DNA from: Bacteroidales bacterium Barb4
Lineage (GTDB): Bacteria > Bacteroidota > Bacteroidia > Bacteroidales > Tannerellaceae
Assembly (NCBI GenBank): GCA_001657575.1
Contig: LBCX01000001.1
Coordinates: 1-64,000, forward strand
Reading direction: 5' to 3'
Length of the DNA stretch: 64,000 nucleotides
Position 1 is the first letter of the stretch. Each line of letters begins with the position of its first letter. Below are positions 5,124 to 48,329 of the stretch, in pieces. Made by a program: the position numbers and the translations under genes. The notes beneath the pieces were generated by a model. That model had not been told where the DNA came from and did not search any database. It was given only the letters and a program-made list of their open reading frames with translations.

Positions 5124-8100
5124 ATGAGACATTCATTGCTGTTTGCCACTCTTTGCTTCAGTCTGTGGGGTACAGCCCGGACTGTTTATTATGTAAGTCC
5201 GAGCGGGACTACGGTTGATACCGGCAGATCTTGGGGGAGATCCGTTACTCTGCATACCGCTCTCGGCTATGCCGCCGCCGGCGACCTTATCTGTATAGCC
5301 GGGGGGCATTACTATGTCGGCGCCGACTATGACCCTTGGACGGTTTTCAAAGACCTGACAATTATCGGCGGTTACAACCAAACGGAAGCCGAGGATGAAC
5401 ATCCGCTGGGGGATGCTTCGGCTACGGTCTTGCACGGTCACAAAGAATCGGATGTCGATGGCCCGCGCAAACGTGTCATGAATATTATCGGGACGAAAAG
5501 TGACACCGTCCGCGTTACTGTTGAAAATCTGACAATGACCGACGGGAATGGAGCGTATGATGATAGCTCAGCCGGCAAAGGAGGAGGTCTGTATAATTAT
5601 TTTTCCGAAACGGTATTGCGGGATGTTATCATTTCAAATAACATTGCTTCCGACAATTATCCCGAGGCTTCCGGCGGCGGGATATACAATGACAGGGCTG
5701 TTCTTACAATAACCGGAAACTCTGTTATACAAAATAATATTGCCGCCACAGGCGATAATTCTTTTGCTCGCGGCGGCGGGATTGCAAACTTTGGAACCCT
5801 TGTTATTTCCGGAAACACAAGAATTACAGACAATACGGCGACTAAAGGATGGGGGGCAGGTGCCGGCGGCGGGATATACAATGCCGGACCCGAGGCGAAA
5901 CTTACTATAAGCAGCGGTACAATCACCGGAAATAAAGCTGTTGATAATCAGCTCAGCCCCGGTACAGCCTGGGGAGGCGGCATAGAAAACACAGGCGGTG
6001 CCGTTGCTGAGCTACTTTCCGGAACCGTCATAAAGGACAACACAACCACTAATGGCTTAGGTACAGGCTTCGGCGGCGGAATAGACAATGCAGGGGCTTT
6101 ATTGACTATTTCCGGCGGACTCATTGCCTCTAATAAGGTTATAGATAACAAGGAGAGCACTGCCGGTGCTCGCGGTGGTGGTTTCTCTAACATTTTGGGA
6201 GGAACGACCCTGCTTTATGCGGGAACCATAGAAGATAACACAGCCACCAATGGACACGGAGCAGGTTTCGGCGGCGGAGTGTTGAGTGACGGAGATTTAA
6301 CATCGTTGAGTTGGGACGATCAGCATACCCTCATAAAAAATAATATCGCTGTCGCCGGTTCCGTAGTACCTTTTGGGGACAACGTTTATTGCAATAACGA
6401 TTCGGGCTTTGTCTGCACGGTTTTTCTTCCTGCCTCTGATCGTATTACTTTTGACAAGGGAGCCGGTTCGTTTGCGATTAAGAGGAAGGGAGCTTTCAAG
6501 TTTGTTATGACACAGGAAGACGATGCCGTGTTGTCGTCCGTCACAGTTGCCAATGCGGTAAACGACCGTATTTTGCTTTTGCCTTTCCAGGACGAGGGGG
6601 GCTATATGTATTCACTGCCGGCAGAGGCAACGGATCTTGCCCATGCAACGGTTTATGTCGAGTTACACTATCGGGTTACGCTTTCCGTCGTCCCTCCGCG
6701 GGGTTTTTCCATGATTCCCGATTCGGGAGAATATCTTGTTCCCCTTGACAGTGAATTTACTTTCTTCCTGGTGTCGGAAGAAGATAAGTATCAAAATGCC
6801 CTGCCGCCCATTACGGCAAATGGCAAGCACCTGCGTCCGTCCGTTGAGGGAGGCGTAACGCCTTATCGGTATTCCTTGCGAATAACAGAACATACACAAA
6901 TTCATTTCGGCGAAATATCAGGATATAAGACCGTTACATTGTCCAATCTTCCGTGGGGTATCTCCGTTATCACACACAAAGCGGGAAAATATTTTGTTCC
7001 CTCCGGCGGTACATTTGACTTCACGCTGTCGGTGGCGGATGAACAACTTAAACACATTGTGCCTACCGTTACAAAAGACAGTGTTGTTGTTGGTTTTTCC
7101 TCCAAGGACAGCTCCGGCATTTACCGGTATTCTTTGGGGATAACAGATGATGCGGTTGTTCAAATCGCATTAAACTACCATACCGTCACACTTCCCGCTC
7201 CTCCGCGAGACATTTATCTTGGTATGAAACAGCCGGGGATATATACGATTACTCCCGACAGTCTGTTTACCTTCACCCTGACGATGTCGGACTACTCTCA
7301 GTACAAAAACGCGCAACCGCTTGTTCGGGTAAACGGCAATATTCTGAAATTCTCTGCCGCGGAGGACGGTGCGATTTACCGGTATTCTCTGAAAGTAACA
7401 GACGATGCGGTTGTTCAAATCGGATTGAATGCCCACACCGTTACCGTTCTCGCTCCGTCAAAAGGTCTTACCGCCGTAGGTTTCCAACCGGGAGAATTCG
7501 TTTCCTTTTTTGAAGACAAATTTACTTTCACGTTAGAGGCGGACGAGAGTCTTCCCAATGCCCGCCTGCAGGTTATTGCCGGTAAGGATACACTGTATCC
7601 TGCCCGGAGCGGCAACGGGTGGTTCACGATATCCCTGCCCGCCGGCATACCAGAAGACATTACTGTTTCCGCCTCACTGTTTTATGCGGTGACCGTCCAT
7701 CCTTCCGTTTTTATCAACATGAATATTCCCTCCGGCGAACATCATGTTTCCCCCGGCGACGGCTTTACTTTCATGCTGAAGCCGTATGAACAATACCAAT
7801 ATGTCGTTCCGGCTATTGTGGTCAACGGGCATGTGCAGAACATATTCCCCGTCGGCAACGGCGGATGGTACAGGGTCTCCCTTGACGTTACGGAAGATGC
7901 CGACGTGCAGGTCATGCTGGAATCGGAAACATCTTCTTTTTCCCCTGCAAATGCGGTGAAGATATACAGCCGCGACGGCAGCCTTGTCATTGAATCTCCT
8001 GCCGGGGATGTGCCTGTAACAGTCACGACCCTTGCAGGACGTATCAAAGCACGGCGGACGGTGACCGGAACGGAAAGCATCGCTCTGCCGGCAGGAATAT

Positions 8101-8156
8101 ACATTGTAAAGGCGGGAACGGAAGTGCGGAAGATAACGATACAGTTGAAAGAATAG
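5124..8156 (+). CDS. Beta-helix surface protein with T9SS sorting domain (paralog 1)
   Basis: A 1010-residue predicted surface protein. MRHSLLFATLCFSLWGTA is a Sec signal peptide. Residues about 30-430 form a parallel beta-helix rich in GGGIYN/GGGI-type turns and N-N-xA ladders, as in polymorphic outer-membrane and pectate-lyase-like folds. Residues about 440-930 hold several repeats of about 75-80 residues, each with FTFTL and YRYSL-type strands. The last 65 residues (IYSRDG...TLAGR...LPAGIYIVKAG...KITIQ) resemble a T9SS type A C-terminal sorting domain. It is a tandem paralog of the gene at 8706. Ligand or function unknown; adhesion is an inference. Confidence 0.75.
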   Translation: MRHSLLFATLCFSLWGTARTVYYVSPSGTTVDTGRSWGRSVTLHTALGYAAAGDLICIAGGHYYVGADYDPWTVFKDLTIIGGYNQTEAEDEHPLGDASATVLHGHKESDVDGPRKRVMNIIGTKSDTVRVTVENLTMTDGNGAYDDSSAGKGGGLYNYFSETVLRDVIISNNIASDNYPEASGGGIYNDRAVLTITGNSVIQNNIAATGDNSFARGGGIANFGTLVISGNTRITDNTATKGWGAGAGGGIYNAGPEAKLTISSGTITGNKAVDNQLSPGTAWGGGIENTGGAVAELLSGTVIKDNTTTNGLGTGFGGGIDNAGALLTISGGLIASNKVIDNKESTAGARGGGFSNILGGTTLLYAGTIEDNTATNGHGAGFGGGVLSDGDLTSLSWDDQHTLIKNNIAVAGSVVPFGDNVYCNNDSGFVCTVFLPASDRITFDKGAGSFAIKRKGAFKFVMTQEDDAVLSSVTVANAVNDRILLLPFQDEGGYMYSLPAEATDLAHATVYVELHYRVTLSVVPPRGFSMIPDSGEYLVPLDSEFTFFLVSEEDKYQNALPPITANGKHLRPSVEGGVTPYRYSLRITEHTQIHFGEISGYKTVTLSNLPWGISVITHKAGKYFVPSGGTFDFTLSVADEQLKHIVPTVTKDSVVVGFSSKDSSGIYRYSLGITDDAVVQIALNYHTVTLPAPPRDIYLGMKQPGIYTITPDSLFTFTLTMSDYSQYKNAQPLVRVNGNILKFSAAEDGAIYRYSLKVTDDAVVQIGLNAHTVTVLAPSKGLTAVGFQPGEFVSFFEDKFTFTLEADESLPNARLQVIAGKDTLYPARSGNGWFTISLPAGIPEDITVSASLFYAVTVHPSVFINMNIPSGEHHVSPGDGFTFMLKPYEQYQYVVPAIVVNGHVQNIFPVGNGGWYRVSLDVTEDADVQVMLESETSSFSPANAVKIYSRDGSLVIESPAGDVPVTVTTLAGRIKARRTVTGTESIALPAGIYIVKAGTEVRKITIQLKE

Positions 8157-8159
8157 CTA

Positions 8160-8402
8160 TCAGATGCCCCGAAGGGGCAAGAGATTTCAGCCCCACATGA
8201 AGCGCAGCGGAATGTGGGGTTACAGGAACGATGCCGTCAGGGGCATCCTGAAAGGATGACAGAATATGTATTGCATTGTGAACCATCATTTACGTTTTGT
8301 ATCGCCCTTTCAGGGCTTTATTGGATTGTATCCGTCCATAAACCCCACATTCCGCTGCGCTCCATGTGGGGCTGAAATCCGCCGTCCCTGCGGGACTTCC
8401 CA
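8160..8402. repeat. Dispersed multi-hairpin element, copy B
   Basis: Layout: outer hairpin GCCCCGAAGGGGC; left arm CCCCACATGAAGCGCAGCGG; small internal hairpins (TCCTGAAAGGA, GCCCTTTCAGGGC); right arm CCGCTGCGCTCCATGTGGGG; outer hairpin GTCCCTGCGGGAC. The arms, about 130 bases apart, pair with one mismatch. No credible coding frame is seen across it. Confidence 0.75.
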
Positions 8403-8409
8403 ACTCCTG

Positions 8410-8545
8410 ACCTCAAACGGTCGTTTGACCCGACTTCACACGGTCGTTTGACCCGACTTCACACGGTCGTTTGACCCGACCTCACACGGTCGTTTGACCT
8501 GACTTCACACGGTCGTTTGACCTGACCTCAAACGGTCGTTCCGTA
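8410..8545. repeat. 23-bp minisatellite
   Basis: Six units with an exact 23-bp period; the CGGTCG core recurs at 8418, 8441, 8464, 8487, 8510 and 8533. Each unit contains GGTCGTTTGACC, an imperfect dyad. It is intergenic, between the two paralogous surface-protein genes. A second 23-bp-period array of different sequence lies at 58058. Confidence 0.85.
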
Positions 8546-8577
8546 TGAGGCGGAAAAGAGTATAGATATTTATTTTA

Positions 8578-8608
8578 CCCCTAACAGGGTTTCAAACCCT
8601 GTTAGGGG
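8578..8608. repeat. Dispersed 31-bp palindrome
   Basis: CCCCTAACAGGGTTT, one central base, then its reverse complement AAACCCTGTTAGGGG. The same palindrome recurs at 46065, 47993, 48240, 52065 and 58152, with degraded copies at 46720, 46955 and 47046. Confidence 0.85.
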
Positions 8609-8705
8609 TTTTCAAAAACAACAAAGGGCTTCACACGTCCCGAAATACTGTAAACTGATATATAATTACCTAAATTATTTCTTACCATATACTTGTATGA
8701 TACAA

Positions 8706-11585
8706 ATGAGGTCTTTACTGCTGATTGCTGCTCTTTGTTTCAGCTTGCCGGGCATGGCTCAATCCGCTTATCATGTAAGTCCTTACGGAACGGCGGGTAA
8801 TGCGGGTACTTCTTGGGATGATGCCGTTACTCTGCAAGCGGCTTTGTCTGCCGCCGCCGACGGAGATACTATCCGCATAGCCAAAGGGAATTATCATACC
8901 GCGAATGCCCGCGGTGCCTGGCAGGTTGCCAAAAGCGTGACAATCATCGGCGGTTATGACGAGACGGAGGATGCGGCAGGGAAACCGCCCGAAAATCCTT
9001 CGGCTACGATTCTGTACGGTAACAGAATACCGGACGGCAACGGAAAGACTACACGTGTCATAAGCATTATCGGCACGGCAGACCACATCATCCGTGTCAC
9101 TGTTGAAAATCTGACAATGACCGGCGGAAACGGAACGTATGATGTTTATGCAAGCGGTCGCGGAGGAGGCTTGTATAACCGTTATTCCGAAACGGTATTG
9201 CGGGGTGTTGTCATTTCAGGGAATACAGCTTCCGACGATGGAAGCAATGATGCCTTCGGCGGCGGGATATGCAATGAAATGGCTGTTCTTACAATAACCG
9301 AAAACTCCGTCATACAAAATAATATAGCTTCTGCCGACGGTGTCGGCAGTGCCTTCGGCGGCGGAATCAGTAACAGCGGCAGCCTCACTGTTGACGGGAA
9401 CACGAGGATAGAAAACAATACGGCTTCTGCCGGGACGGGAGCCGGTTCGGGCGGCGGAATATTCAGTTCCGGAGAAACGGCAAAGCTCTTTGTAAGCCAC
9501 AGTGTAATCATCGGAAACAAAGCGGTTGACAACCCGTCCGGCGATCAAGAAGCATCCGGAGGCGGCATAGATAATACAGCCGGTTCATACGCCGAATTGG
9601 CTGTGGGAACCGTTGTTAAAGACAATATTGCCACTACCGGCTTGGGAATCGGTTTCGGCGGAGGAGTGAGCAATACATCCTTTTCCGCACTGCTTTTTTT
9701 CGCCGGTCTCGTTACATCCAATACGGCGATCAGTAATCTGTCGAACACGGCAGAAGCCCGGGGTGGCGGGATATATAATGACAACTTGTCCACGTTGGAA
9801 TGGGAGGATCTGACGGCTTTCATACACAGCAACACCGCTACTGCCGGCTCCGGAACAAGCACGGGAACCGATATTTATTCAAAGTATGCCTACAACGTCT
9901 TTTTCCCCGTTGTTGAACATATAACCTCCGACAGGGAAATCCGTACCCATGCGGTTAAGAATGGCGGCACTTTCTGGTTTACGCTAAAGACGGATTCCGA
10001 CAACAAAGACCAGACACAGCTTGTTTTGGCTAACGACCGCCCGCTGACGCCGTCCGACAGTATGGGCGATGGGATGTACCAATATACCCTGACAATAACG
10101 GAGGATGTGGTGTTTTATATCGCATTCAAATCCATTATCACGCTACCCGACATTCCACTGATGCCGGGCTTCACCCTTACCCCCGATCCAGGCGAATATA
10201 TTACTCGCTCTGATGGCACATTTACTTTTTCCTTGCAGAAGGAGAAAAAATACAAGGGCATTGAACCGGTTGTCAGGATAGGCGAGACCCTTTTGCTTCC
10301 ATCCGGCATAGAAGGAGATACCATTTACCGGTATTCGCTGTTGACGAAGGAAGATGCGGATATTCAAATCACAACAAACCGCCACGTTGTCATGCTTTCC
10401 GACCCGCCGCAGGGTCTCTCTCTTACCACAGACCAACCGTTAGTGTATGCTACTGCCAATAATACGTTTGCCTTCACCCTGAATGTGACGGATGATCGGT
10501 TCAAATACATCCTGCCGACCGTTCTGGTAAACGGCATCTCTACAATGCCGACCGGCAAAAACGACGGCAGTTACCGGTATATCTTGGATATAAGGGGCTA
10601 TACGGATGTTCAAATCGAATTTAAACACCACTCCGTCACGGTACCTTACTCCCCAACGAGCGTTACTATGAACCGTGTTCCGGGGAGATACGATATTCAA
10701 TCCGACAGCGCATTTAACTTCACCTTGACGGTAACGGACAGCAAACTCGCAGACATAGCTCCGTTTGTTGCCGTGAATGGCAATCCGTTGCTTTTCTCCG
10801 GCAAGCAAGGCAGTTTCATTTACCTGTATTCCTTGAAAACAACGGAAGATGTGCTTATTCGAATCGAAGCAGATTACTATGCCGTCACGTTTGCCGCTCC
10901 GCCGGAAAGTGTCGCAGCTGTCACGCCCGAACCGGGGAAATACTTTGCTTTCGTCGGCACTGACTTCACTTTCACGCTAAATCCAAAGGAACAATACCTT
11001 GATGCCTGTCTGGAGGTTGTTGCCGGTAACGATACGATATATCCCGTCCGGGACAGCAACGGAGGGTTCACGATGTCTCTGAGTGGTTTAAGGAAAGATA
11101 TTTCCGTCACCGCCTTTTTGTTCTATAAGGTAGTGATTCATCCTTCCATTTTTATAGATATGGATATTCTCCCCGGCGAATACAAGGTTGTTCCCGGCAG
11201 TGATTTCATTTTCAAACTGAAGCCGTATGAACAATACACCAATATCGTCCCGACTGTCGTTGTCAACGGGAATATATGGCAGCTTCTCCCTGTCGAAAGC
11301 GATGGATGGTACACAATCTCTCTGCCTGCCACAAAAGACACCGACATACAAATCCAACTGCTGCCGGAAGCCTCCCTTTTCCCTGCAAACGCGGTGAAGA
11401 TATACAGCCACGGCGGCAACCTTGCCATTGAATCTGCTGCCGGAGAAATCCCTGTAACGGTTACCACTCTCGCCGGTCGTGTCAAAGCCCGGCAGAAAGT
11501 AGCAGGAACGAAAAGCATCGCCCTGCCGGCAGGGATATATATTGTGAGGGCGGGGGTAGAAACACGGAAGATAACGGTTAGATGA
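8706..11585 (+). CDS. Beta-helix surface protein with T9SS sorting domain (paralog 2)
   Basis: A 959-residue paralog of the protein at 5124, with the same order: signal peptide (MRSLLLIAALCFSLPGMAQ), beta-helix with GGGIYN turns, repeated FTFTL/YRYSL domains, and a T9SS-type C-terminus (IYSHGG...TLAGR...LPAGIYIVRAG...KITVR). The ATG at 8706 is chosen over 8697 because it starts a clean signal peptide. Several segments are nearly identical to paralog 1 (for example VTVENLTMT, SETVLR), suggesting tandem duplication or gene conversion. The stop overlaps the next gene's ATG by four bases, so the two are probably cotranscribed. Confidence 0.75.
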   Translation: MRSLLLIAALCFSLPGMAQSAYHVSPYGTAGNAGTSWDDAVTLQAALSAAADGDTIRIAKGNYHTANARGAWQVAKSVTIIGGYDETEDAAGKPPENPSATILYGNRIPDGNGKTTRVISIIGTADHIIRVTVENLTMTGGNGTYDVYASGRGGGLYNRYSETVLRGVVISGNTASDDGSNDAFGGGICNEMAVLTITENSVIQNNIASADGVGSAFGGGISNSGSLTVDGNTRIENNTASAGTGAGSGGGIFSSGETAKLFVSHSVIIGNKAVDNPSGDQEASGGGIDNTAGSYAELAVGTVVKDNIATTGLGIGFGGGVSNTSFSALLFFAGLVTSNTAISNLSNTAEARGGGIYNDNLSTLEWEDLTAFIHSNTATAGSGTSTGTDIYSKYAYNVFFPVVEHITSDREIRTHAVKNGGTFWFTLKTDSDNKDQTQLVLANDRPLTPSDSMGDGMYQYTLTITEDVVFYIAFKSIITLPDIPLMPGFTLTPDPGEYITRSDGTFTFSLQKEKKYKGIEPVVRIGETLLLPSGIEGDTIYRYSLLTKEDADIQITTNRHVVMLSDPPQGLSLTTDQPLVYATANNTFAFTLNVTDDRFKYILPTVLVNGISTMPTGKNDGSYRYILDIRGYTDVQIEFKHHSVTVPYSPTSVTMNRVPGRYDIQSDSAFNFTLTVTDSKLADIAPFVAVNGNPLLFSGKQGSFIYLYSLKTTEDVLIRIEADYYAVTFAAPPESVAAVTPEPGKYFAFVGTDFTFTLNPKEQYLDACLEVVAGNDTIYPVRDSNGGFTMSLSGLRKDISVTAFLFYKVVIHPSIFIDMDILPGEYKVVPGSDFIFKLKPYEQYTNIVPTVVVNGNIWQLLPVESDGWYTISLPATKDTDIQIQLLPEASLFPANAVKIYSHGGNLAIESAAGEIPVTVTTLAGRVKARQKVAGTKSIALPAGIYIVRAGVETRKITVR

Positions 11586-41466: not shown

Positions 41467-41542
41467 GCGAAAGTAGCTCAGTTGGTAGAGCATAACCTTG
41501 CCAAGGTTAGGGTCGCGGGTTCGAGTCCCGTCTTTCGCTCCA
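41467..41542 (+). tRNA. tRNA-Gly (GCC)
   Basis: A complete cloverleaf: acceptor GCGAAAG/CTTTCGC, D-stem GCTC/GAGC, anticodon stem TAACC/GGTTA with loop TTGCCAA (anticodon GCC), T-arm GCGGGTTCGAGTCCCGT, discriminator T and encoded CCA. Confidence 0.97.
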
Positions 41543-41746: not shown

Positions 41747-42889
41747 TCAAATATTCAAAGCACTTAAAAGAGGTTCCACATTAGGGAGCATCGTGTCTGA
41801 TTTTCGTCCAATTTTCTTTGCGGATATTTTATTGAAAAAATTTATTCCTTCATTCCAATAATTAATATAAAAAATAGATTTCTCATTTTGAAATTCTTTT
41901 TCATATTTTTCTAATGTTTGTATTTTTTGGCTGTTGATGAGAATTATGTCCGAAGCATTCAGTCTAAATTCTAATGATTTGATACTCTCAAAACTTTTCC
42001 ATGATTGCCTTGGATGAGATAGTGAAATAGTTGTGATTAAATTATTATCCCATAATTGTTTTAAATCGCTTCGTATCTTTAATTGCAAAATACCATAAGG
42101 TAAGACAACGATTGTTTTTAACCCTCTAAGAAGCAGTTCTTTTAAAAGATTAGCCTCCATACTACTATTTAAGCCAACAACATATACTATATTTTGATTT
42201 AATAATTCATCTACACATCCCCAAAAAGCATTTTGTTCTCTTTCAGTTGCTTTTGAATCAATAATTACAGAGATCGTTTTCTCATGAAAAAAACTAATAT
42301 CCCCTTTTACATATAGTTCTGAAGCAGATTTTCCTCTTATCTTAGAGGGGTAATCAGAGTCATTTGGTAAAATATGTTTTATGTCTTTTGCTTTTAATAT
42401 GTCAGAAATTTCATTTGTCATTTTTTTTGTTGTGGAACTTGCTGGTTCAAAAACCAAGATATTAGCATTAAGATTCTTCAAATGTTCTTCAATTAGTTTT
42501 TTTACAATACTCCAATCAAGTCCTCCATGTCCACAACCTAATGCGGGAATAGTTATTGTTGGGTTATTTTTTGTTTTTAAATACTCTTGTAACCATACAA
42601 GTCCTTTTTCTATATATTCATATTCTGATGGTTTCTTCCAATCGTTTTTAGTCGGGAAATTTATAATTGTCAAATTTTTATCAAATAATTCTGGAGTATG
42701 CCAAACATGAGGCTGCCCTGGTCTTATCAACTTTTGGCTACATAACCTTGCATATTCATTAAACATTTCAGGATATTTATTCTTGAAAATTAGAGCGACT
42801 CCAGCTCCCATAACGCCAACACAATTTACTGTATTAACCCTTATATCAGCTTTGTGATCAAAAAAATCTCCTTCTGCAAATGTTATCAT
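41747..42889 (-). CDS. darG: DarG-like macrodomain antitoxin fused to a DprA/SLOG-like domain
   Basis: A 380-residue two-domain protein. Residues 1-150 are a DarG-type macrodomain: VNTVNCVGVMGAGVALIFK (N19, N22, glycine loop), INFPTK with Lys81 at the position of the catalytic Lys in known DarG, and IPALGCGHGGLDW. This domain should remove ADP-ribose from DNA. Residues about 160-350 resemble the Rossmann core of DprA/SLOG proteins (DSDYPSKI, YVVGLNSSMEANLLKELLLRG, TIVVLPYGI, FRLNASDIILINS), which sense nucleotides or ssDNA. The gene overlaps the DarT stop by ATGA, so the two are translated together. The DprA-like part replaces the usual DarG C-terminus and is the unusual feature. Confidence 0.88.
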   Translation of the reverse strand: MITFAEGDFFDHKADIRVNTVNCVGVMGAGVALIFKNKYPEMFNEYARLCSQKLIRPGQPHVWHTPELFDKNLTIINFPTKNDWKKPSEYEYIEKGLVWLQEYLKTKNNPTITIPALGCGHGGLDWSIVKKLIEEHLKNLNANILVFEPASSTTKKMTNEISDILKAKDIKHILPNDSDYPSKIRGKSASELYVKGDISFFHEKTISVIIDSKATEREQNAFWGCVDELLNQNIVYVVGLNSSMEANLLKELLLRGLKTIVVLPYGILQLKIRSDLKQLWDNNLITTISLSHPRQSWKSFESIKSLEFRLNASDIILINSQKIQTLEKYEKEFQNEKSIFYINYWNEGINFFNKISAKKIGRKSDTMLPNVEPLLSALNI

Positions 42890-44238
42890 TTCTTATTTGA
42901 TATTTCCTTTAATACTTTTGATTTAAAAGCAGGTAATTCTGTTTCCACTTTTGATTTCCATGTAGAATTAATTGCTGAAACATCTGCTATATTTAAAGCA
43001 ATCAGCATATCTAATTCCTTTTCATTATCCGCAACATCAACTATTTGTTGAATGTCTCGTTTTTTTTCTATTATATCTGCCACCAAATCGTGATATGTTA
43101 CTAACAGACATATTTTCCGTATTTCATAATCTGATATAGTTTCAAAATCTTCAACTAAAATTCTTTCTAACATGGGAATTGCATCAGCTGGATGGTCAGG
43201 ATATGCTTTTTGTATTCCACCTTCCCATTTTGTTTTTGGACCTTTACCGATATCATGCAGATAAGCCGATAATTCCAATATTTTTTTATCTTTATCCTCA
43301 AAATTTGGATAATCAGTTCCACTTTTGAGTTCTTCGACAACTTTAAGCGTATGGTCGCTTACACAATCTTTATGAGCTTCATTACTTGTCTGAAGTTTAT
43401 ATATATCATTTAGTTCTTTTAAGATGCAAAAGTTAGAATTTATTTTTTGCAAAGCATCATCTATATTACTAAATAAATAATTTCCAGATTGCTCTTTTTC
43501 TCTTTTTTCTTGTATTTCTTTTATGATATTAAAACAATGCAACTTTAAAAAACAAGGGCCTGTTATTAAAGATTTATTTTTTCTTCCTAAGAAGAATTTA
43601 GTAAAATAAAAGTAGAATTTGTTTTTAAAAGTAGCAATAGATATTTCAGGTGGCTTGGTATTATTTTGTTTAAAAACTGTTAGGACTGCTTTTTTTATGC
43701 TATCGTTCCAAACGATAATGTATTCAATTTTTTCAATAGGAACTTTTTCATGAATCAAAACCTCGGCCATTTTTTTATGTCGTTCTTCATATGAATATTT
43801 CCATGCTCTTTTATCAATAATATTCCAGTCTAATTTGTCTAAATCATTTGGAGAATCATAAAAATTCGGAGGCGGATCAGTGTTTGCAGACGCATCTGTA
43901 AATACTGTATCAGCATTATCAATATGGTCTATTGAAACAGCCAAAAATATAAAAAACTGTTGGTCTTTATTCTTTGAATTTACAACAGACAGCAACATTG
44001 GATTGATTGACGTGAAATAAAAAGGCACGTAATCATGTACTTTCCCCTTTGGACCACATGATACATCCATCGTACTTCGGCGTTCTTGAATTCCTTTCGT
44101 TGCAATATCAATATGAGTTATACCTGATTGATTTTTTTTGTTTGTAGAAAGCAATCCATGCTTAATAATTGAATCAAGATTTTCTAAATGAGTAAAATGG
44201 AAAAAATATTTTCCTTTGTGATTATTGGGGATAGGCAT
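42886..44238 (-). CDS. darT: DarT-like DNA ADP-ribosyltransferase fused to an HD domain
   Basis: A 450-residue protein. Residues 1-195 match DarT/DUF4433: FFHFTHLENLDSIIKHGLL (His14), ERRSTMDV (Arg53/54), VHDYVPFYFTSINPMLLSV and AEVLIHEKVP with Glu159, close to the Arg51/Glu160 pair of characterised DarT. It would ADP-ribosylate ssDNA using NAD+. Residues about 285-430 form an HD phosphohydrolase: His296, His328-Asp329 in AYLHDIGKGP, His349, His383 and Asp419. HD enzymes hydrolyse nucleotides or phosphodiesters. The fusion suggests a second nucleotide-directed activity or a sensor. darG follows with a four-base overlap. Confidence 0.88.
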   Translation of the reverse strand: MPIPNNHKGKYFFHFTHLENLDSIIKHGLLSTNKKNQSGITHIDIATKGIQERRSTMDVSCGPKGKVHDYVPFYFTSINPMLLSVVNSKNKDQQFFIFLAVSIDHIDNADTVFTDASANTDPPPNFYDSPNDLDKLDWNIIDKRAWKYSYEERHKKMAEVLIHEKVPIEKIEYIIVWNDSIKKAVLTVFKQNNTKPPEISIATFKNKFYFYFTKFFLGRKNKSLITGPCFLKLHCFNIIKEIQEKREKEQSGNYLFSNIDDALQKINSNFCILKELNDIYKLQTSNEAHKDCVSDHTLKVVEELKSGTDYPNFEDKDKKILELSAYLHDIGKGPKTKWEGGIQKAYPDHPADAIPMLERILVEDFETISDYEIRKICLLVTYHDLVADIIEKKRDIQQIVDVADNEKELDMLIALNIADVSAINSTWKSKVETELPAFKSKVLKEISNKK

Positions 44239-44678: not shown

Positions 44679-44873
44679 GGAAATCGGGAATTTCCAGATG
44701 GAAATTGAGAATCTCTCGCAGGAATTGGAAAAGTCTATCTGGAAATCGGAAATTCCTCGCAGGAATTGGGAATTTCCATCTGGAAATTGAGAATCTCTCG
44801 CAGGAATTGACAAAGTCTATCTGGAAATCGGGAATTTTTCGCAGGAATCGGGAATTTCCAGATGGAAATCGGA
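44679..44873. repeat. 41-bp tandem repeats (82-bp higher order)
   Basis: CGCAGGAATTG-type cores recur at about 41-bp spacing (44717, 44758, 44799, 44840), and pairs form an 82-bp unit repeated at 44701 and 44783. Units contain the dyads GGGAATTTCC and CCAGATGG. An open frame from 44225 through the repeats looks spurious. The rest of 44239-44928 shows no gene. Confidence 0.8.
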
Positions 44874-44928
44874 CTTGAAAAAAGGAATTTCAACATTGTT
44901 AAACTTAAAAAAGAAAGGAGGTTATGAA

Positions 44929-45727: not shown

Positions 45728-45907
45728 ATGAAACTGAAAGAAAGATTTGTAACATTGGTATTTAATCTGGCTACTTGTACTGACAGCCGCAGTCGTTAAC
45801 ACGCTGATAAAGGTCATAGATATGCCAACGAATATAATACTGTTTGCATTTGCAGGCAGCATAGTCCTAATATTGGAGTAATAATAGAAAGGGTAGTAAG
45901 ATGGACG
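45728..45907 (+). pseudogene. Frameshifted first copy of the 60-residue membrane protein
   Basis: Starts MKLKERFVTLVFNLAT like the intact copies at 46409 and 47650, but two bases are missing at the following codons (ACTTGTACTG versus ACCTATATACTG), giving a stop after 23 codons. A further deletion lies near 45865. The next cassette gene starts at 45901. Confidence 0.8.
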
Positions 45908-46050
45908 AAGCATTTTGGGATACATTTTGGGATTTTTGCATAGTTATGGCAGGATGCATACTTGTTTGCGGGGTATTGCCTTTGGTGTTGCTTGAACACA
46001 AGGAGAAGCCCGGCAAGGAGACCGGAGAAGGGGATAACCATAACTCCTAA
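45901..46050 (+). CDS. Small membrane protein, cassette gene 2, copy 1
   Basis: A 49-residue protein: MDEAFWDTFWDFCIVMAGC, then a hydrophobic stretch to VLPLVLL and a charged tail EHKEKPGKETGEG. It has one predicted membrane helix with a charged C-terminus. Homologous copies lie at 46588 and 47829. Function unknown; size and topology recall holin-like or toxic small membrane proteins, but nothing shows that directly. Confidence 0.55.
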   Translation: MDEAFWDTFWDFCIVMAGCILVCGVLPLVLLEHKEKPGKETGEGDNHNS

Positions 46051-46064
46051 AATAAGGTTTCATA

Positions 46065-46095
46065 CCCCTAACAGGGTTTCAAACCCTGTTAGGGG
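46065..46095. repeat. Dispersed 31-bp palindrome
   Basis: A perfect copy of CCCCTAACAGGGTTT/AAACCCTGTTAGGGG, 15 bases after a stop codon, where it may act as a terminator. Confidence 0.85.
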
Positions 46096-46114
46096 TTCAA
46101 AAACAAAAAGAACA

Positions 46115-46330
46115 ATGGAACACTCGGCAGGAATTGAATGCGAAAAGGAAGAAACTGTCCATACTGCTCACGGTTTGCGTTCCGCTTGGTACAAATTACG
46201 TCAAAGATTGGAAGACTGGTACGACCTTTTGTATTGCTGGTGGTATCGGAATGAACCTAAAATTCCGGCGAATGAATTTTTTGAAGAATTAGAAAGAAAG
46301 CGCGGAATAGACGGGGTTTACAGGAGTTAG
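46115..46330 (+). pseudogene. Antitoxin fused to toxin tail by internal deletion
   Basis: A 71-codon frame. Most of it parallels the antitoxin at 47097 (LRSAWYKLR.RLED.YDLL..WWYRNEP). It then ends DGVYRS, which is the end of the RelE-like toxin at 47314-47571 (SGVYRS), and DNA after the stop matches that after the toxin gene. A deletion has removed nearly all of the toxin and joined the two genes in frame. The product could still bind DNA or toxin. Confidence 0.7.
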
Positions 46331-46408
46331 GAATTGGGGAGACAGGAGTTGGGAATTCGATTGCCCTGCTGCACGGGTGCAGGGTTTATAACCAAAATGG
46401 AGGAAACT

Positions 46409-46591
46409 ATGAAACTGAAAGAAAGATTTGTAACATTGGTATTTAATCTGGCTACCTATATACTGACAGCTGCAGTCGTTAACACGCTGATAAGGGTAAT
46501 AGATGTGCCAATAAATATAATACTGCTTGCATTTGCAGGCAGCATATTTTTTGTACTAGTTGGAGTAATAATAGAAAGGGGAATGAGATGA
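46409..46591 (+). CDS. Small two-helix membrane protein, copy 2
   Basis: A 60-residue protein. Residues about 8-30 and 35-55 are hydrophobic helices separated by RVIDVP, with a charged end ERGMR. It is preceded by an AGGAAAC site and by a short CCCTG...CAGGG hairpin shared with the other copies. Its stop overlaps the next gene's ATG. Nearly identical to the gene at 47650. Function unknown. Confidence 0.65.
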   Translation: MKLKERFVTLVFNLATYILTAAVVNTLIRVIDVPINIILLAFAGSIFFVLVGVIIERGMR

Positions 46592-46725
46592 GCGAAGCAT
46601 TTTGGGAAGCATTTTGGGTTATGGCAGGATGCATATTTATTTGCGGGGTATTGCCTTTGATATTTCTTGAACGTAAGGAGAAGCCCGGCAAGGAGACCGG
46701 AGAAGGGGATAACCATAACCCCTGA
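46588..46725 (+). CDS. Small membrane protein, cassette gene 2, copy 2
   Basis: A 45-residue protein (MSEAFWEAFWVMAGC...LERKEKPGKETGEG) with one membrane helix. It overlaps the two-helix gene by four bases, so the two are translated together. It is four residues shorter than the other copies (a WDFCI-type segment is missing). The stop TGA lies within a degraded copy of the dispersed palindrome. Confidence 0.6.
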   Translation: MSEAFWEAFWVMAGCIFICGVLPLIFLERKEKPGKETGEGDNHNP

Positions 46726-46750
46726 CAGGGTTTGAAAACCTGTTGGGGGT
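46720..46750. repeat. Degraded dispersed palindrome at a stop codon
   Basis: CCCCTGACAGGGTTTGAAAACC...: the TGA in the left arm is the stop of the 46588 gene. Confidence 0.6.
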
Positions 46751-46896
46751 AAGTTTTACGCAGATGCCCTGAAAGGGCAAAAGATTTCAGCCCGGCAGTT
46801 TTTTGCCTGTTTATTTGCAGCATTGGATTTTGACTGTATCTTCGCGGCGTGTTTTTCATTATTTATTTTGATTGTAATTGCTAATCTTGACACAAA

Positions 46897-46929
46897 AAAC
46901 GCTCCGCCTGTGAAGATAGAGCGTTTTTA
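46897..46929 (+). terminator. Cassette terminator, copy 2
   Basis: AACGCTC...GAGCGTTTTT, repeated at 48176-48208 with the surrounding 150 bases. Degraded palindrome copies lie just after it at 46955-46983 and 47046-47067. No gene is seen at 46751-47096. Confidence 0.75.
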
Positions 46930-47096
46930 CTTTGAATTATGTGTACAGTTTATCGCTAACAGGGTTTGGAACCCCGTTAGGGGTAAACGGCATAAAATAT
47001 ACGCATCCATGAAACGGGAATACACGGCACATCAAGGGTTTATTAGGGTTTCAAACCCTGTTAGGGGTGGGATTCAAGGTTTACAAATAGAATAGT

Positions 47097-47321
47097 ATGG
47101 AAGAAGAAGTTAAGGTTTTACTGTCGGCAGAAATTGAATACAGAAAGGAAAAGACTATCGGGACTACTAATAGTTTGCGTTCCGCCTGGTATAAATTGCG
47201 TGAAAGATTAGAAGACTTGTACGACCTTTTGCACATTTGGTGGTATCGAAATGAACCTACAACACCTATGCGCGAGGTGTTTGAAAAAGAAGATAAAAGA
47301 CGCGAGATAGAAAATGTATAA
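47097..47321 (+). CDS. Putative antitoxin of RelE-type pair
   Basis: A 74-residue charged protein, MEEEVKVLLSAEIEYRKEK, then SLRSAWYKLRERLEDLYDLLHIWWYRNEP. It overlaps the RelE-like toxin start by eight bases, the usual antitoxin-first order. I do not recognise the family; the call rests on position. A copy fused to the end of a deleted toxin gene lies at 46115. Confidence 0.6.
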   Translation: MEEEVKVLLSAEIEYRKEKTIGTTNSLRSAWYKLRERLEDLYDLLHIWWYRNEPTTPMREVFEKEDKRREIENV

Positions 47322-47571
47322 GGTTATTTTTAGCAGAAAGGCAGAGAAGACGCTAAATAAATTACCTAATGACTATTATCGGTTAGTAAAGAAACATGTT
47401 TCATCTCTCGAACAGAACCCCCGCCCTTTCGGTTATTGTAAATTATTCGGTTCTGATAATAAATACAGAATACGCATTGGCGATTACCGTGTTGTTTATT
47501 CAATAAAAGAGGATATTTTAACGGTGGAAGTGATTAATATTGACCACAGAAGCGGGGTTTACAGGAGTTAG
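47314..47571 (+). CDS. RelE/ParE-family toxin
   Basis: An 85-residue protein with the RelE fold signature: MYKVIFSRKAEKTLNKLPNDYY, then LFGSDNKYRIRIGDYRVVYSI and a final strand VEVINIDHRSGVYRS. RelE toxins are mRNA interferases that cut mRNA in the ribosome. The basic residues in the YRIRIGDYRV stretch and the C-terminal His/Arg are typical. It overlaps the putative antitoxin by eight bases and has normal length, so it is probably intact. Confidence 0.88.
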   Translation: MYKVIFSRKAEKTLNKLPNDYYRLVKKHVSSLEQNPRPFGYCKLFGSDNKYRIRIGDYRVVYSIKEDILTVEVINIDHRSGVYRS

Positions 47572-47649
47572 GAATTGGGGAGACAGGAGTTGGGAGTTCG
47601 ATTGCCCTGCTGCACGGGCGCAGGGTTTATAACCAAAATAGAGGAAACT

Positions 47650-47832
47650 ATGAAACTGAAAGAAAGATTTGTAACATTGGTATTTAATCTGGCTACCTAT
47701 GTACTGACAGCTGCAGTCGTTAACACGCTGATAAGGGTAATAGATGTGCCAACGGATATAATACTGTTTGCATTTGCAGGCAGCATATTTTTTGTACTAA
47801 TTGGAGTAATGATAGAAAGGGGAATAAGATGA
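47650..47832 (+). CDS. Small two-helix membrane protein, copy 3
   Basis: A 60-residue protein nearly identical to the copy at 46409 (differences such as PINIILL to PTDIILF). Two hydrophobic helices and a charged C-terminus. It lies 78 bases after the RelE-like toxin gene and overlaps the next small gene by four bases. Repetition of the toxin-antitoxin genes plus this pair indicates that the whole set duplicated as a unit. Confidence 0.65.
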   Translation: MKLKERFVTLVFNLATYVLTAAVVNTLIRVIDVPTDIILFAFAGSIFFVLIGVMIERGIR

Positions 47833-47978
47833 GCGAAGCATTTTGGGATACATTTTGGGATTTTTGCATAGTTATGGCAGGATGCGGATTTGTTTGCGGT
47901 GTGTTGCCTTTTATATTGCTTGAACACAAGAAGAAGCCCGGCAAGGAGACAGGAGAAGGGGATAACCATAACTCCTAA
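47829..47978 (+). CDS. Small membrane protein, cassette gene 2, copy 3
   Basis: A 49-residue protein (MSEAFWDTFWDFCIVMAGC...LLEHKKKPGKETGEG) with a single membrane helix. It overlaps the upstream two-helix gene (ATGA). Near-identical to the copy at 45901. A dispersed palindrome follows 14 bases after the stop. Confidence 0.6.
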   Translation: MSEAFWDTFWDFCIVMAGCGFVCGVLPFILLEHKKKPGKETGEGDNHNS

Positions 47979-47992
47979 AATAGGGTTTCATA

Positions 47993-48022
47993 CCCCTAAC
48001 AGGGTTTGAAACCCTGTTAGGG
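47993..48022. repeat. Dispersed 31-bp palindrome
   Basis: Near-perfect copy directly after a stop codon; the outermost base of the right arm has changed. Confidence 0.8.
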
Positions 48023-48175
48023 ATTCAGAGATGACATCGACGAAACCCTGTCAGAGGTTCGTTCCATTTTTTTCTGAAGTTTTTTGCCTGTTTATTTGCA
48101 GCATTGGATTTTGACTGTATATTTGCGGCGTATTTTTTATTAATTTATTATTATACATGCTAACCTATGACTAAA

Positions 48176-48208
48176 GAAACGCTCCGCCTGTGAAGGTAGA
48201 GCGTTTTT
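48176..48208 (+). terminator. Cassette terminator, copy 3
   Basis: AACGCTC...GAGCGTTTTT hairpin, a repeat of the 46897 terminator. Confidence 0.75.
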
Positions 48209-48239
48209 ACTTTGAATTTTGAATTATGTGTACAGTAAA

Positions 48240-48271
48240 CCCCTAACAGGGTTTGAAAACCCTGTTAGGGG
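48240..48271. repeat. Dispersed palindrome
   Basis: Copy with one extra A at the centre, about 60 bases upstream of the BspA-like gene. No gene is seen at 47979-48329. Confidence 0.8.
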
Positions 48272-48329
48272 TTCAGACTAACAAAAATAGACGCGGAATA
48301 GAACATATATAAAGAGGATATACCCTATT

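Follow-up and report, generated by a model that had tools for sequence, protein, structure and literature searches.

A putative DarTG subtype whose toxin carries an HD domain and whose antitoxin carries a SLOG domain

In the DarTG system, the toxin DarT modifies thymidine in single-stranded DNA (ssDNA), the macrodomain of the antitoxin DarG erases the mark, and the C-terminal domain of DarG holds the toxin (PMC7003065). Here, we analysed a 64,000-nucleotide stretch of the Bacteroidales bacterium Barb4 genome (contig LBCX01000001.1, positions 1 to 64,000; hereafter the window), which carries a gene pair related to this system. The pair has in common with DarTG of the DarT2 type (Thermus, EPEC and M. 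tuberculosis) a DarT toxin, a macrodomain antitoxin, an overlapping operon and the catalytic residues; however, the toxin here adds an HD domain, and the antitoxin has a SLOG domain instead of the toxin-binding C-terminal domain. ShosTA/PsyrTA shares an antitoxin with a DprA/SLOG domain, and ShosA is the nearest solved structure, but the toxin here is DarT-HD rather than a phosphoribosyltransferase, and the SLOG domain here is fused to a macrodomain and lacks the GSR motif. DarT-NADAR also combines a DarT-family toxin with a hydrolase antitoxin, from which our pair differs in that its antitoxin is a macrodomain and its toxin is far nearer to Thermus DarT (E 3.4e-21) than to E. coli DarT1 (E 0.45 only). 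Since toxin and macrodomain are held in common while the canonical DarG C-terminal domain is absent, the best reading of these sequences is that the pair represents a variant rather than ordinary DarTG, namely a new subtype distinct from the canonical one.

An ORF check bore out the two open reading frames of the earlier note on this DNA, including their coordinates and ATGA overlap; both lie on the minus strand, with the toxin gene first. The features are as follows.

42886..44238, minus strand: toxin gene, DarT ADP-ribosyltransferase fused to HD, 450 aa (ORF, Pfam, NCBIfam, AlphaFold2/Foldseek)
43612..44202, minus strand: DarT domain, residues 13-209 (Pfam PF14487, Foldseek, conservation)
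43384..43623, minus strand: DarT-to-HD linker, residues 206-285, mostly helical and fast-evolving (model and conservation)
42919..43383, minus strand: HD domain, residues 286-440 (Pfam, NCBIfam, conservation, weak Foldseek)
41747..42889, minus strand: antitoxin gene, DarG macrodomain fused to DprA/SLOG, 380 aa (ORF, Pfam, NCBIfam, Foldseek)
42434..42889, minus strand: macrodomain, residues 1-152 (Pfam Macro, DarG 5m31/5m3i)
41783..42394, minus strand: DprA/SLOG domain, residues 166-369 (Pfam DprA, profiles, Foldseek 8zva)
41467-41542: tRNA-Gly, near the pair

The adjacency of the two genes in one operon is kept in homologues. GC content over the pair is 28-36%, against about 50% between 38500 and 41500 on the argH side, and this low GC together with the nearby tRNA-Gly makes it likely that the window pair was horizontally acquired; the 3' end of the tRNA has no repeat within the window, so an attachment site is not shown. 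A 41-base unit is repeated in tandem at 44682-44886, just upstream of the toxin gene, and 45776-48274 holds duplicated segments in which a 24-base palindrome-like repeat (AGGGTTTCAAACCCTGTTAGGGGT) is present seven times.

The N-terminal part of the window toxin matched Pfam PF14487 over residues 13-209 (E 3.6e-50), and the toxin scored above the NCBIfam DarT cut-off. Its AlphaFold2 model was confident (pLDDT 92.5, pTM 0.88) and matched Thermus DarT in Foldseek (7omy, E 2.5e-15). In the alignment, R53 falls on the Arg of the Thermus DarT motif IQERR, and E159 aligns with an Ala in the crystallised Thermus protein, a position which we take to be the catalytic E160, mutated for crystallisation. 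As R53, R54 and E159 were also unvarying in all 31 aligned toxins, the DarT-type domain with Arg53/54 and Glu159 that had been proposed for this locus holds. The same is true of the proposed DarG macrodomain with Lys81 in FPTK: Pfam Macro matched residues 18-132 of the window antitoxin (E 2.5e-15), the macro-SLOG model, which was fair (pLDDT 86.1, pTM 0.62), matched the DarG macrodomain 5m31 (E 1.1e-14), and K81, unvarying in 25 of 25 antitoxins, aligned at the site of K80, the essential Lys of T. aquaticus DarG (PMC7003065). Sequence-profile searches pointed to the same families as the structural matches. Judging from these sequences and models, reversible DNA ADP-ribosylation as the first step of the system appears well supported.

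The remainder of the antitoxin departs from DarG. The NF048014 profile reached 234.3 bits, below its cut-off of 250, and was covered at positions 1-167 of 338, without the canonical C-terminal domain, and the PADLOC DarG profile was matched over 1-156 of 329 only; because both are matched in their N-terminal halves only, the usual DarG C-terminus appears to be replaced by the SLOG domain. Residues 166-271 matched Pfam DprA (E 4.6e-8), which was detected in 14 of 21 homologues, sequence profiles matched ShosA/DprA with ShosA as the nearest defence profile to this new part, and Foldseek retrieved ShosA (8zva, E 8e-11) and DprA (3uqz, E 9.6e-10), in line with the macrodomain-DprA/SLOG fusion suggested earlier. 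Two SLOG residues, E218 and S289, were unvarying across 25 antitoxins. The GSR motif of DprA was absent from the aligned SLOG domains, in which columns 212-213 are variable, and its loss weakens the plain reading that this domain binds ssDNA like DprA. A somewhat unlikely alternative is that the SLOG domain serves as a DNA-repair arm, which would bind DNA in a ShosA-like manner and, by homologous recombination, repair lesions missed by the macrodomain. Its closest solved relative, ShosA, is reported to bind DNA and probably to promote recombination (Pu et al. 2025, relayed in PMC12593503), and RecF recombination repairs ADP-ribosylated DNA (PMC7003065); however, the lost GSR motif and the fast divergence of the domain (24% mean identity) would suit a surface that senses or binds a partner better than a conserved site for DNA. 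Given that the DarG C-terminal domain was exchanged for a ShosA-like one, we infer, with moderate confidence, that the SLOG domain took over toxin holding and trigger sensing.

For the HD domain, Pfam matched residues 294-405 of the window toxin (E 3e-5; E 2.4e-6 with the domain alone) and detected HD in 26 of 26 homologues, and the nearest NCBIfam model to this part was GlnD (E 4.9e-7). Foldseek returned PDE5A, PDE2A and GppA, which are of the HD-superfamily type, but the matches were weak (E about 0.01-0.03) though the model was confident, and the HD assignment thus rests on the Pfam matches and the invariant ligands. The ligands H296, H328-D329, H349, D384 and D419 were unvarying in 31 of 31 toxins while overall toxin identity drops to 37%, and H289 and R394 were unvarying as well; the proposed set (H296, H328-D329, H349, H383 and D419) was found unvarying except at H383, which is His in 21 toxins and Asp in 10. 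These data suggest that HD is a second catalytic domain, apparently active, and that catalysis by the DarT, macro and HD domains looks maintained, as judged from residue conservation. It is unlikely, in our view, that the HD domain processes the DarT product, acting as a nuclease or pyrophosphatase that trims or cuts ADP-ribosylated DNA and so leaves a lesion that the macrodomain cannot erase. Its fusion to an ssDNA-modifying enzyme, its unvarying metal ligands and the weak profile matches of some DarT-HD members to the HD domain of Cas3, which belongs to a family of DNA nucleases, all fit this idea; however, the model nearest to HD describes phosphohydrolases of the GlnD type and not nucleases, and no part of the system is better conserved than the macrodomain (61% mean identity), so reversal still seems essential.

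About 30 full-length DarT-HD proteins, 37-54% identical, were found in several phyla, on plasmids and in prophages. The genomes belong to Bacteroidota, Bacillota, Pseudomonadota, Desulfosarcina, Fibrobacter, a deltaproteobacterium MAG and an archaeal MAG; whole DarT-HD occurs on three plasmids, and viral (mostly proviral) contigs carry it too, as seen with an alignment query, a single-protein query having returned nothing. The fusion is rare: of 395 genomes sampled across its phylum, only the window's own had it, with all the relatives searched coming from outside its genus. Chance or an assembly artefact was rejected as the origin of the four-domain layout, which is found in isolates, complete genomes and plasmids. 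The tree placed the HD-bearing DarTs in one clade (support 100/99) and the macrodomains of their partners in one clade (support 97/88), and the DarT-HD fusion therefore probably had a single origin followed by horizontal spread. The fusion of an Epulopiscium MAG (L045, 5260-7308) has Sel1/TPR repeats ahead of DarT-HD, and its antitoxin was not found on the fetched stretch. A literature search that reached few subscription papers and no preprints found no published account of DarT-HD or macro-SLOG toxin–antitoxin pairs; in PMC9503650, viral fusions of SLOG to macrodomains and DarT systems are noted, whereas this pair is not. The earlier note's view that the layout is undescribed is in keeping with what we found. 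The two proteins recur together in distant phyla.

The pairing of the two added domains was strict in two-gene loci. A SLOG domain was present in the complete antitoxins of all 28 two-gene DarT-HD loci (27 by profile, plus the window) and, with the same profile, in none of 17 ordinary DarGs, counts that speak for a pairing retained and not repeatedly gained, because the DarT-HDs are one clade. The profile was built without five members, and these held-out five scored 130-188 bits. An antitoxin-led scan of viral contigs showed that each of the six contigs on which macro-SLOG has DNA upstream of it carries DarT-HD (six being the number corrected for one contig counted twice), while two further macro-SLOG genes start at the contig edge; all 31 loci with a DarT lacking HD have a macrodomain without SLOG, and none of the 38 lone macrodomains has one. 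Three trio loci (L039, L040 and L041, about 6001-9056), the last of them from an isolate, Duncaniella muris, are operons of three genes, in the order DarT-HD, ordinary DarT (with the conserved Arg and Glu retained) and ordinary DarG; the SLOG profile found the domain in none of these three antitoxins, which indicates that HD does not strictly need SLOG. Mean pairwise identity was 61% for the macrodomain, 47% for DarT, 44% for HD, 31% for the linker and 24% for SLOG. In partial Mantel tests corrected for DarT, SLOG distances tracked linker and HD distances, a covariation confounded by the fast evolution of the linker, which also follows the macrodomain; this is a hint from sequence that SLOG may touch the added (linker-HD) half of the toxin.

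The genomic context of the homologues is rich in phage and defence genes. In E. coli S1-SRB-02-B the pair is flanked by the tail fibre assembly gene and the tail sheath gene of a P2-like prophage, and in E. coli LR-28 it directly follows the tail fibre assembly gene of a P2-like prophage that is degraded; loci L065 and L066 likewise have genes for tail fibre and fibre assembly upstream of the pair. The fun gene of P2 lies between G and FI. PMC9519451 reports a second P2 locus enriched in defence genes, and this locus holds fun. Another E. coli copy lies beside icd and adjoins a phage integrase, and neighbours of other copies include integrases, CI repressors, restriction-modification genes and BrxC/D, with a BREX-type helicase 20 bases upstream of the pair in L049. 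The icd-adjacent prophage of E. coli S87 (L083, 13150-16319) has an intact DarT-HD, a decayed DarT-HD of another type and then the latter's intact macro-SLOG, and in E. coli S1-SRB-02-B (L084, 6001-8446) DarT-HD is split in two pieces, next to an antitoxin protein identical to that of LR-28. A HerA ATPase and a SIR2 protein, likely a defence module themselves, adjoin the Sinorhizobium copy (L031, 261-3604).

In three genomes the pair is associated with the defence system HMA (helicase-methylase-ATPase). The gene order in Desulfosarcina (L043, 2548-13386) is HmaA, DarT-HD, macro-SLOG, HmaB, HmaC; in one MAG (L051, 7346-11339) HmaA likewise precedes the toxin and macro-SLOG is fused to the HmaB methyltransferase (DUF1156), and this fusion occurs again, with a different linker, in another MAG (L056, 675-4859). 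These fusions suggest that methylation-based defence and DNA ADP-ribosylation may be linked, which would be new to us. Most copies, including that of the window, in contrast stand alone with no HMA genes recognised alongside; inspection of the ORFs beside the window pair, rather than a profile search, made no HmaA, HmaB or HmaC evident, and no recognised defence gene was seen among the window neighbours. The anti-phage role put forward in the earlier note gains its support from context, that is, from the P2-like prophages and the HMA and BREX-helicase neighbours. That the pair instead serves to maintain plasmids or prophages, or to control growth, is also unlikely: several copies are on plasmids and prophages, and M. 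tuberculosis DarT-DarG is reported to coordinate stationary-phase growth (PMC12170906), but the HMA and P2 cargo contexts indicate defence. Lone viral macrodomains that are 54-59% identical to the window DarG macrodomain were seen in four loci (L093, L094, L095 and L149), where DarT was not found on the fetched stretch; they are possible anti-defence erasers, for comparison with a described phage antitoxin mimic (PMC11481870).

On the whole, we lean towards a DarTG subtype that is a two-gene toxin–antitoxin system, most likely anti-phage, in which SLOG docks and senses and HD is a second effector. The DarT domain would attach ADP-ribose to thymidine in ssDNA and thereby block replication, and the partner macrodomain would remove it from the DNA, as the conserved residues and named families imply. 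The SLOG domain would dock on the linker-HD half of the toxin, in place of the DarG C-terminal domain, and would let the toxin go on a signal from the phage, be it ssDNA, a nucleotide or a protein. HD would then be a metal-dependent phosphoesterase, adding a second such activity to the system and acting as second effector on DNA or nucleotides where DarT works; the HD substrate and the SLOG ligand are guesses, and we infer toxicity, DNA ADP-ribosylation and the trigger alike. In the earlier note, HD was suggested to hydrolyse a nucleotide or modified DNA and SLOG to sense ssDNA or nucleotides, roles that are likewise conjectural. Quite improbable is a two-step DNA toxin, in which DarT marks ssDNA, HD converts the mark into a cut or irreversible lesion and SLOG reads the damage or a nucleotide, with DNA ADP-ribosylation, in the HMA-embedded forms whose antitoxin is fused to the methyltransferase, acting as the effector of a self/non-self system based on methylation. 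It is highly doubtful that the pair is ordinary DarTG whose HD and SLOG domains merely stabilise or pair the proteins, with neither catalysis nor sensing: the SLOG residues are degenerate relative to DprA and the DarT and macro halves alone could form a working system, but all the proposed HD ligands but one are unvarying across phyla, the exception being His or Asp, which is unexpected for an inert domain.

Annotation pipelines label the two proteins simply as DarT and macro-domain proteins, so the putative subtype, which is widespread and has an apparently active second enzyme domain, is easily missed. The HD-SLOG pairing described above is a clean case, open to testing, in which a toxin and its antitoxin have acquired domains jointly.
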